DNA of 64,000 bases from the NCBI RefSeq assembly GCF_008123515.1, contig NZ_VSSR01000012.1:1-64000 (forward strand). Reading direction: 5' to 3'. How positions within the stretch are numbered: position 1 is the stretch's first letter; every line of letters begins with the position of its first letter. Origin of the DNA: Bradyrhizobium cytisi. Lineage in GTDB: Bacteria; Pseudomonadota; Alphaproteobacteria; Rhizobiales; Xanthobacteraceae. A program made the translations under genes and the position numbers. Under the pieces are notes generated by a model. That model was not told the origin of the DNA and searched no databases. It worked only from the letters and a program-made list of their open reading frames with translations. Below are positions 41,869 to 44,496 of the stretch, in pieces.

Positions 41869-43530
41869 TTACATCGCCTCGTAGTTCGGACCGCCGCCTC
41901 CCTCCGGAGGAACCCAGGTGATGTTGCCGTTGGGGTCCTTCACGTCGCAGGTTTTGCAGTGGACGCAGTTCTGGGCGTTGATCTGGAAGCGCGGGCCCGA
42001 ACCTTCCTCGATCCACTCATAGACGCCGGCCGGGCAATAGCGATTCGACGGACCGGCGAACACGTCGTGCTCGGAAGTCTTCTGCAGGTTCATGTCGGCC
42101 ACCAGGAGGTGGACCGGCTGATCCTCCTCGTGATTGGTGTTGGACAGGAACACCGAGGACAGCTTGTCGAAGGAGATCTTGCCGTCCGGCTTCGGATAGT
42201 TCTTCGGCGCGTGTTGCTTGGCCGGATCGAGCGTCGCGCGATCGGGCTTGGCATGGGACTGCGTGCCGAACAGCGAGGTGCCGAACAGCGTGTTGAACCA
42301 CATGTCGAAGCCGCCGAGCGCGACGCCAAGCACGGTGCCGAACTTCGACCACAGTGGCTTGACGTTGCGGACCAGGAACAGATCCTTTCCGACCGACGAG
42401 GACCGCCACGCGTTCTCGTAGTCGACGATCTCGTCGTTGGCGCGATCGGCCGCGAGCGCGGCTGCAACATGCTCAGCGGCAAGCATGCCGGTGCCCATCG
42501 CATTGTGCACGCCCTTGATGCGCGGCACGTTGACGAAGCCGGCCGCACAGCCGACCAGCGCGCCGCCGGGGAAAGTCAGCTTTGGCACCGACTGGTAGCC
42601 GCCTTCGGTGATGGCACGCGCACCATAGGCAAGGCGCTTGGCACCTTCGAAGGTGCCGCGGATCGACGGATGAGTCTTGAAGCGCTGGAACTCGTCGAAC
42701 GGCGATAGATACGGATCGTCGTAGTTCAGATGCACGACGAAGCCGACCGCGACGAGATTATCGTCGTAGTGATAGAGGAACGACCCACCGCCGGTCTTGA
42801 GGTCGAGTGGCCAGCCGAACGAATGCTGGATCATGCCCTTCTGGTGCTTGGCGGGATCGATCTGCCAGACCTCCTTGAGGCCGATGCCGAACTTCGCCGG
42901 CTCGCTGTTGGAATCGAGCGCGAATTTTGCGATCAGCTGCTTGGTCAGGCTGCCGCGCGCGCCTTCGGCGAACAGCGTGTACTTGCCGAGCAACTCCATG
43001 CCGCGGGTGAAGGAGTCTTTCGGCTTGCCGTCGCGGCCGATGCCCATGTCGCCAGTGGCGATGCCCCTCACCGCGCCCTGCTCGTCATAGAGCACTTCGG
43101 CGGCGGCAAAGCCCGGGTAGATCTCGACGCCGAGCGCCTCGGCCTTGCGCGCCAGCCAGCGGCAGACATTGCCGAGCGAGCCGATATAGCAGTGATGGTT
43201 GTCCATCAGCGGCGGCATCATGAAGTTCGGCAGCTTGATCGCGCCTCCGGCCGTCATCCAGTAGAAGCGGTCGTCCTTCACCTGGGTCTTCAGCGGGCAG
43301 TCGGAATCCTCGCGCCAGTCCGGGGTCAGCTTGTCGAGCCCGGCCGGATCGATCACGGCGCCGGAGAGAATGTGCGCACCGACCTCGGAGCCCTTCTCCA
43401 CCACGACGACGTTGAGATCGGCATTGATCTGCTTCAGCCGGATCGCCGCAGCCAGGCCCGAGGGGCCGGCGCCGACGATGACGACGTCGAATTCCATGGA
43501 TTCCCGCGGGGGAAGTTCTTCGGTGCTCAT
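41869..43530 (-). CDS. Electron transfer flavoprotein-ubiquinone oxidoreductase
   Basis: Membrane-linked flavo-iron-sulfur enzyme that moves electrons from ETF to ubiquinone in fatty-acid and amino-acid catabolism; 553 aa, family length. FAD motif DVVIVGAGPSGLAAAIRLKQ at the start, FAD/quinone blocks HPSIRGTFEGAKRLAYGARA and LTFPGGALVGCAAGFVNVP, and the [4Fe-4S] ligands in CPAGVYEW and NCVHCKTCDVKDP near the C-terminus. The N-terminal start is MSTEELPPRESMEFD. It is divergent from the UDG gene. etfAB are not in the window. Confidence 0.96.
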   Translation of the reverse strand: MSTEELPPRESMEFDVVIVGAGPSGLAAAIRLKQINADLNVVVVEKGSEVGAHILSGAVIDPAGLDKLTPDWREDSDCPLKTQVKDDRFYWMTAGGAIKLPNFMMPPLMDNHHCYIGSLGNVCRWLARKAEALGVEIYPGFAAAEVLYDEQGAVRGIATGDMGIGRDGKPKDSFTRGMELLGKYTLFAEGARGSLTKQLIAKFALDSNSEPAKFGIGLKEVWQIDPAKHQKGMIQHSFGWPLDLKTGGGSFLYHYDDNLVAVGFVVHLNYDDPYLSPFDEFQRFKTHPSIRGTFEGAKRLAYGARAITEGGYQSVPKLTFPGGALVGCAAGFVNVPRIKGVHNAMGTGMLAAEHVAAALAADRANDEIVDYENAWRSSSVGKDLFLVRNVKPLWSKFGTVLGVALGGFDMWFNTLFGTSLFGTQSHAKPDRATLDPAKQHAPKNYPKPDGKISFDKLSSVFLSNTNHEEDQPVHLLVADMNLQKTSEHDVFAGPSNRYCPAGVYEWIEEGSGPRFQINAQNCVHCKTCDVKDPNGNITWVPPEGGGGPNYEAM

Positions 43531-43639: not shown

Positions 43640-43685
43640 AGATGAACTAATAGTCTGACTTTAGATGAACTAATAGTCTGACTTT
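43640..43685. repeat. Exact 23-bp tandem duplication before the UDG gene
   Basis: The 23-bp unit (AGATGAACTAATAGTCTGAC plus TTT) occurs twice head to tail at 43640-43662 and 43663-43685, then four bases later the UDG start codon. Both copies contain TAATAG, similar to a -10 box. Perfect identity suggests a recent slippage event. Confidence 0.95.
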
Positions 43686-43689
43686 CCAA

Positions 43690-44496
43690 ATGATCCCCGA
43701 GCCCGCACCTACCGTCCGAGAGCTTCTCGCCTTCTATCTGGAGGCCGGTGTCGATTGTGCGCTCGCCGAGGAACCGGTCGACCGCCTGGCGGAATTGGAC
43801 GCCCCGCCGCCGGCCCCGCGCGCGGTGCCGGTCGAAGCACCGCGGCCTGTCGCCGCGCCTGCGGTGATGCGCGGCGAGGCCGCACTGGCGCCCGACGTCG
43901 CTATCGCCTCGGCCCGCGAGGCCGCGCGCACTGCGCCAACACTCGAGGCGCTGCGAGAGCTCATGCAAAACTTCGAGGGCTGCGCGCTCAAGCACACTGC
44001 GACGCGGCTGGTGTTCGCCGACGGCAATCCGCAGGCGCGCATCATGTTCGTCGGCGAGGCGCCGGGCCGCGACGAGGATATCGAGGGACTTCCGTTTGTG
44101 GGACGCAGCGGCAAGCTGCTCGACCTCATGATCGGCGCGATCGGGCTCAACCGCACCACGGCCTACATCACCAACGTCATTCCCTGGCGGCCACCCGGCA
44201 ACCGTACGCCGACGCCGCAGGAGACGCAGATCTGCCTGCCCTTCATCCAGCGTCATATCGAGCTGGTGAACCCAGATGTGCTGGTGACGCTCGGCAATCC
44301 CTCGACGCAGACGCTGCTCTCGACCCGCGAGGGCATCATGCGGACGCGCGGCCGCTGGTTCGACTACGACACGGGTAGCCGCACCATCCGCGCGCTGCCG
44401 ACCTTTCACCCGGCCTACCTCTTGCGCTCGCCGTCCTACAAGCGGCTTGCCTGGCAGGATCTGCGCGCGATCGCGAAGTTGCTGGCGGGCGCGTGA
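43690..44496 (+). CDS. Uracil-DNA glycosylase, family 4-like, with atypical cysteines
   Basis: DNA repair glycosylase of 268 aa. The first motif [20 protein letters not shown] (about 120-139) and the second [13 protein letters not shown] (about 236-248) are clear. Canonical family 4 enzymes ligate [4Fe-4S] by four cysteines. Here only Cys98 (GCALKH) and Cys182 (ICLPF) remain in place; the first is Phe95 and the third is Trp166 ([10 protein letters not shown]). So the cluster is probably absent. From memory, a distinct UDG class lacking the cluster was reported from B. diazoefficiens; this may be its counterpart. N-terminal residues 38-60 are a Pro/Ala linker. Divergent from the ETF-QO gene. 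Confidence 0.88.

Follow-up and report, generated by a model that had tools for sequence, protein, structure and literature searches.

Background

The role of the [4Fe-4S] cluster in DNA glycosylases is still argued, with stability, DNA binding and charge-transport signalling all put forward. The loop located between the cluster cysteines is reportedly the subject of work by Engstrom in 2012, and BdiUng, an enzyme of B. diazoefficiens that has the UDG fold and no cluster, is said to have been described by Chembazhi in 2017.

The closest described systems are the family 4 uracil-DNA glycosylases (UDGa) of Thermus thermophilus (1ui0/1ui1), Thermotoga maritima (1l9g) and Sulfolobus tokodaii (4zbx), in which four cysteines bind the cluster. 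PMC5295032 reports from its own data that breaking the cluster cysteines of a family 5 enzyme costs only part of the activity, and by citation it gives the same partial cost for family 4; on that basis, a working enzyme devoid of the cluster is plausible. UdgX of Mycobacterium smegmatis combines a GEQPG motif, an R-loop and a 4Fe-4S cluster, according to PMC10359453. PMC10776899 reports that UdgX uses Lys94 to bond with the backbone of its catalytic Asn and that a K94A variant was unfolded; in Thermus UDGa, Lys83 could potentially form an equivalent contact.

Here we analyze a UDGa-like gene lying in a 64,000-nucleotide stretch of Bradyrhizobium cytisi DNA (contig NZ_VSSR01000012.1), hereafter the window. 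With a probability of about 0.82, we read it as an alphaproteobacterial family 4 UDG whose class ancestor lost the [4Fe-4S] cluster and which functions as a uracil glycosylase in its absence. An old-looking, widespread and naturally cluster-free family 4 enzyme, in which the replacing residues can be named, would provide a clean natural control for the debate on cluster function, and labelling the alphaproteobacterial orthologues as cluster enzymes on the grounds of family 4 membership would mislead. No description of a cluster-free family 4 enzyme in Alphaproteobacteria was found in the literature searched, key subscription papers lying outside that search.

Locus, family assignment and predicted fold

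The open reading frame starts with an ATG and its features are collected in Table 1. The preliminary description had placed the gene at 43640-44496; the end of that span stands, and its start takes in 50 upstream bases. The encoded protein scores 212.8 bits against the family 4 model TIGR00758 (cut-off 125.3), matches PF03167 and has Thermus thermophilus UDGa 1ui0 as its closest solved structure (E 7.9e-44). The glycosylase motifs, previously described as intact, were indeed found: GEAPG, a GE(A/G)PG-type motif A, at residues 122-126, the catalytic-loop Asn at N162, and HPAYLLR, with the HP of motif B, at 240-246.

Table 1. Features of the UDGa-like locus, in coordinates of the window.
Feature	Position	Strand	Basis or remark
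Putatively cluster-free family 4-like uracil-DNA glycosylase (UDGa-like), 268 aa	43690..44496	+	TIGR00758, PF03167, 1ui0
N-terminal motif, residues 12-32, followed by Pro/Ala-rich linker	43723..43785	+	alignment
Phe95 codon, site of cluster cysteine 1	43972..43974	+	alignment
Cys98 codon, site of cluster cysteine 2; absent from some relatives	43981..43983	+	alignment
Ala104 codon; Arg in 37/38 rows outside the class	43999..44001	+	alignment
Motif A GEAPG, residues 122-126	44053..44067	+	sequence motif
Pro165-Trp166 codons; usually Lys-Cys (cluster cysteine 3)	44182..44187	+	alignment
Cys182 codon, site of cluster cysteine 4; absent from some relatives	44233..44235	+	alignment
Motif B HPAYLLR, residues 240-246	44407..44427	+	sequence motif
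ETF-QO (electron-transfer flavoprotein-ubiquinone oxidoreductase), divergent neighbour	41869..43530	-	orthology marker, no mechanistic role proposed

An AlphaFold2 model of the protein has a mean pLDDT of 87.9; its input alignment consisted mostly of four-cysteine relatives, which biases it towards the canonical family 4 fold. Superposition on 1ui1 gives 1.1 Å for 181 residues, with Z 29.4 and 43% identity. The family 4 structures compared match the model at Z 28.5-29.6, and the earlier expectation of a structurally distinct enzyme does not hold for the predicted core, which is that of a family 4 UDG. The window protein shares with family 4 UDGa motifs A and B, N162 and the RPPGNRxP loop, but lacks cluster ligands 1 and 3 (where F95 and W166 are found) and the nearby Arg and Lys; with respect to the Thermus chain it also carries an extra N-terminal motif and linker. 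Since the four-cysteine set is incomplete, we treat the protein as a derived, putatively cluster-free variant instead of classing it as a canonical UDGa. By descent, motifs and predicted fold it is a family 4 enzyme, by its predicted cofactor it is not a canonical one, and the name that we propose is cluster-free, family 4-derived UDG of Alphaproteobacteria.

Other UDG families fit less well. Motif A is GEAPG and not of the GLAPA type of family 5 (Z 20.4 to 2d3y). UdgX belongs to the same superfamily branch and has a similar fold (Z 26-28), but the window protein has no GEQPG, lacking the Gln in motif A, and no KRRIH-type R-loop insertion, and its TIGR03914 score (129.9 bits) lies below the cut-off of 189.95. 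The same genome encodes a UdgX-type gene that carries a fused TIGR03915 domain (contig C106), a GLAPG gene with a CxxC that is read as family 5 from its motif (contig C146), and a MUG-like gene scoring under the model cut-off (contig C68). Contig C146 also holds, at about 2285-2752, a GEAPG paralogue (L004) without cluster cysteines and with NAIPFRP at ligand 3, which scores below the TIGR00758 and TIGR03914 cut-offs.

Loss of the cluster ligands across the Alphaproteobacteria

Alignment with HMMER places the cluster cysteines of Thermus 1ui0 and Thermotoga 1l9g/1vk2 on F95, C98, W166 and C182, and MAFFT yields the same four columns, confirming the previous placement of Phe95 and Trp166 at the sites of the first and third cluster cysteines. 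The best 80 of 251 loci in a genome scan, which are Bradyrhizobium by title except for L011 (Frankia) and L032 (Bradyrhizobiaceae), carry F-C-P-W-C without exception at residues 95, 98, 165, 166 and 182; the nearest named relative among them is Bradyrhizobium rifense, at 99%. Core dN/dS values of 0.02-0.13 in eight pairwise comparisons with scan loci indicate purifying selection. The agreement of 80 loci and the selection acting on the core thus make it clear that F95 and W166 are not a sequencing accident.

To these loci we added 190 genomes sampled evenly from the class. Matches with an E-value of at most 1e-10 were obtained in 180 of them, two of which (G012 and G145) have a UdgX-like protein as top match. 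Rows correspond to the best match per genome, plus further draws from the order and the phylum, and second matches were read in only two cases. The final class tally comprises 328 rows, made up of the 80 scan loci and 248 others; outside it stand the paralogue-like L143, L144, L420 and L421, the fragment L142, the window's own L087, the duplicates L464 and L465, and L422, which gave no alignment, while L466 and L467 were read after the tallies and are counted in none.

No class row has four cysteines (0/328), and the only two with three come from a single genus. Among the 248 non-scan rows, with gaps scored as no cysteine, 184 retain two cysteines, 32 retain one and 30 none. Trp occupies position 166 in 322 of the 327 rows without a gap there, and Cys in none of them; at position 95 a Cys occurs in just 6 of 320 ungapped rows, and the remaining pair is more often kept (Cys98 in 280/321 rows, Cys182 in 280/328). 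Outside the class, on the other hand, four cysteines are present in 37 of 40 rows, Thermus and Thermotoga being counted along with 38 loci. The three deviating rows are L299, with a gap at 95; L312, a UdgX-like protein with Tyr at 166 and the other three Cys in place; and L319, a haloarchaeal Halobaculum plasmid protein that contains no cysteine whatever and has Val at 166, yet keeps motif A. L319 shows that cluster loss is not limited to the Alphaproteobacteria. L312 and L319 are included in the 37/40 count and excluded from the 38-row outside set used below.

Four changes are diagnostic of the class: C95F, R104A, K165P/F/Y and C166W. Position 104 is Arg in nearly all rows of the outside set and Ala in 178 of 183 class rows, whereas position 165, Lys in 35 of 38 outside rows, is never Lys in the class, where Pro, Phe or Tyr mostly take its place. 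The Halobaculum protein retains Lys at the equivalent of position 165 without any cysteine, and hence the loss of Lys is not forced by the loss of the cluster. The 183 class rows placed in a tree have Trp (180 rows) or Tyr (three rows) at position 166 and no Cys; on that tree, Cys98 was lost through at least 22 changes and Cys182 through at least 19, and both are missing from 20 rows. Such repeated loss makes essential binding by these two residues unlikely and, together with the class-wide disappearance of ligands 1 and 3 from the orthologues, argues that the cluster is very probably absent, in line with the preliminary description of the enzyme as probably cluster-free.

Two loci of one genus, L132 and L414, retain the CxxC and Cys182 alongside Trp166, that is, three of the four ligands, a state that is possibly an intermediate or a partial reversal. 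L132 falls in an unresolved part of the 183-row tree; L414, the match of which contains one internal TAA, is absent from both trees described below. A different situation is found in genome G090, which encodes a canonical four-cysteine UDGa with intact motifs (L467) alongside a degenerate cluster-free copy (L133). L467 is probably an acquired gene, and might represent a second kind of replacement. Its four cysteines restrict our claim to the orthologues of the window gene, as opposed to every UDGa of the class.

Origin and orthology

Two trees were built, both of them excluding the 80 scan loci. The smaller one combines 52 of 182 class rows and the window protein with 38 outside rows and one UdgX, and the larger one the full 182 class rows and the window protein with 18 of the 38 outside rows. 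Excluded from both beforehand were the UdgX-like L143, L144 and L312, the haloarchaeal L319, and a set of degenerate, fragmentary or long sequences (L320, L307, L311, L134-L136, L138, L139, L141, L142, L145 and L146); the degenerate L137, L133 and L140 were kept in the larger tree, where L140 and L137 form long branches. With the cluster columns omitted, a single branch of the smaller tree splits the 53 alphaproteobacterial rows from the 38 outside rows and UdgX (SH-aLRT 93), and the same branch appears in the larger tree (SH-aLRT 91), neither value being starred. The simplest reading is that the cluster was lost once, in the class ancestor.

The orthology of these loci is further supported by a conserved neighbour, named ETF-QO after an annotated homologue adjoining the Sphingomonas orthologue. 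In divergent orientation, it adjoins the UDG gene at all 83 Bradyrhizobium loci and at 50 of a further 90, many loci being too short to show a neighbour; three of the 90 come from outside the class and two are UdgX-like, and neither group contributes to the 50.

Catalytic motifs and the distribution of Ung

All catalytic positions tested are intact in the window protein and in 173 of 194 class rows, the remaining 21 (one of them the fragment L142) missing at least one catalytic residue. Degenerate copies occur, among others, in Sphingomonas and Sinorhizobium records, and ETF-QO lies beside 5 of the 14 degenerate rows checked for neighbours (L134, L136, L137, L145 and L320). Motif A, the catalytic Asn or motif B is absent from orthologues such as L320, L317, L308, L310, L241 and L263, and L134, L136, L145 and L466 are likewise degenerate; from their sequences, these orthologues look like pseudoenzymes.

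The occurrence of intact UDGa is complementary to that of family 1 Ung. Ung (TIGR00628) scores above the cut-off in 12 of the 190 class genomes, and UDGa is intact in two of these and degenerate or missing in ten, as compared with 158 intact and 20 degenerate or missing among the 178 genomes without Ung (Fisher p 1.2e-7). For this comparison motif status was scored by hand and the locus was read for each of the 180 matched genomes; G012 is tabulated as missing and has a degenerate copy (L466), which leaves the table unaffected. A stricter count, which takes G128 and G100 (mild changes from intact) and G090 as intact, with G069 being a fragment, gives 2/12 against 161/175 (p 9.9e-9). Both p-values are indicative, since related genomes are not independent. 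The 12 Ung genomes represent nine family codes. Within a draw of 101 genomes from the order, which overlaps the class draw, Ung exceeds the cut-off in five, with UDGa degenerate in G224, G420 and G454 and intact in G380 and G447; among the other 96, part of which were read for motifs, UDGa is degenerate in G373, G375, G417 and G451 (one of them mildly) and four have no UDGa match. The link is not strict, as 20 of the 30 class genomes with degenerate or missing UDGa have no Ung. A search of the contigs of the window genome returned no Ung match.

That UDGa is mostly degenerate or missing where Ung is present suggests that UDGa is usually the working uracil glycosylase, and the distribution of the two suggests that the cluster-free UDGa acts as the usual stand-in for Ung. 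In most Alphaproteobacteria, where family 1 Ung is lacking, it is probably, on this genomic evidence, the main uracil glycosylase for general use, and may indicate how most of the sampled members of the class manage without that enzyme.

Proposed mechanism and alternative explanations

In the mechanism that we propose, the class ancestor would have replaced ligand 1 with Phe or Tyr and ligand 3 with Trp, and two nearby cationic positions, Arg104 and Lys165, would have changed as well. Aromatic packing presumably refills the vacated cluster site, and the refilled site would still hold the RPPGNRxP loop, which is located between cysteines 3 and 4 of the canonical enzymes. Catalysis would proceed as in family 4, with GEAPG making a main-chain contact, F136 stacking against the uracil, N162 recognizing the base and H240 of motif B taking part, and with an AP site as the putative product. 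If UdgX needs Lys94 for folding, as PMC10776899 indicates, the absence of this Lys from the class implies that the site must have been rebuilt.

The two cysteines left in most rows lend themselves to another interpretation, in which Cys98 and Cys182 would preserve a metal centre: a mononuclear metal, a smaller cluster, or a cluster for which other ligands or a small thiol make up the set. Most rows retain both residues, and in the raw counts their losses strongly coincide (both present in 183 of 241 ungapped non-scan class rows, Cys98 only in 17, Cys182 only in 14, neither in 27), which could mean that the pair still serves some joint purpose, such as a disulfide or metal binding; a tree-based pair test had 2-4 supported pairs, too few to weigh on either side. 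Against a metal centre, many of the 27 rows without either residue have intact catalytic motifs, and the combinations that replace the Cys98 and Cys182 pair (S+F, L+T, C+L and C+M) look, as residue types, like core packing. Moreover, an alternative ligand for the missing two, the finding that would have told against the preliminary description, was looked for in the alignment without yielding a candidate: no other Cys or His column near the site is conserved in the class alignment except H189 (and the catalytic H240), and H189, the sole class-enriched His column near Cys182, is kept in 23 of the 27 rows without both cysteines and is hence not ligand-like. We regard a residual metal centre as improbable. 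We attach still lower odds to the idea that the cluster was lost through decay or that the protein is now a non-catalytic DNA- or protein-binding factor. The retention of the gene, in part next to ETF-QO, in rows that lack a catalytic residue speaks for it, but strong purifying selection, the complete catalytic set of the window protein and most class rows, and the concentration of degenerate or missing copies in genomes with Ung (10/12 vs 20/178) all go against it.

The preliminary description had also raised the possibility that the gene is of the cluster-free B. diazoefficiens type, and the shared genus and UDG fold make BdiUng (Blr0248, PDB 5gn2) an obvious candidate. Its orthologue is nonetheless a separate gene of the same genome, on contig C164, which matches Blr0248 over its whole length (E 9.1e-162) and bears the GQDPA motif A of that enzyme. 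The window protein, with GEAPG and a full motif B, is much closer to 1ui1 (Z and identity as above) than to 5gn2 (Z 14.2, 17%). The identification with BdiUng is consequently rejected, the odds in its favour being negligible.

Beyond the loss of the cluster in a family 4 enzyme that stays active, a broader scenario can be put forward tentatively, although we consider it rather doubtful as a whole. The ancestor might have dropped the cluster through the four coupled diagnostic changes, so that uracil repair in most of the class would do without redox sensing or signalling through a cluster; in genomes that later gained another uracil glycosylase (Ung, or a four-cysteine UDGa in the case of G090), the catalytic motifs might have been lost and the protein kept for a non-catalytic job via the same loop and the N-terminal motif.

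Phage relatives and additional features

Ligand loss is also seen among phage contigs, where four cysteines are present in 64 of 79 non-empty rows (row L347 being empty). Six ungapped phage rows have none of the four (L342, L354, L362, L370, L397 and L404), and L342, L354, L362 and L370 align with the window protein at only 34-39% identity across the matched region. Like the class, these six and the haloarchaeal L319 keep motif A in the absence of the ligand cysteines. Position 166 reads W, Y, Y, F and F in the cysteine-free phage rows other than L404, which has His; the His of L404 and the Val of L319 imply that an aromatic residue at 166 is common in the cluster-free state and not needed for it. 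The phage and haloarchaeal cases are probably separate losses; disappearance of the cluster seems to have happened more than once.

The N-terminal motif, LLxFYxEAGVDxAIxxxPVDR, is present with its linker in many class rows, and residues 22-37 have pLDDT values below 50 in the AlphaFold2 model. This motif may resemble the clamp-loader-binding peptide of DNA polymerase III psi. A short, comparable motif of the YLxxxGI type is found in several other proteobacterial UDGa.

Directly 5' of the start codon, at 43640-43685, a 23-base unit, agatgaactaatagtctgacttt, is tandemly duplicated. The second copy is absent in the 16 relatives compared, and the duplicated unit holds a -10-like stretch near the ATG.
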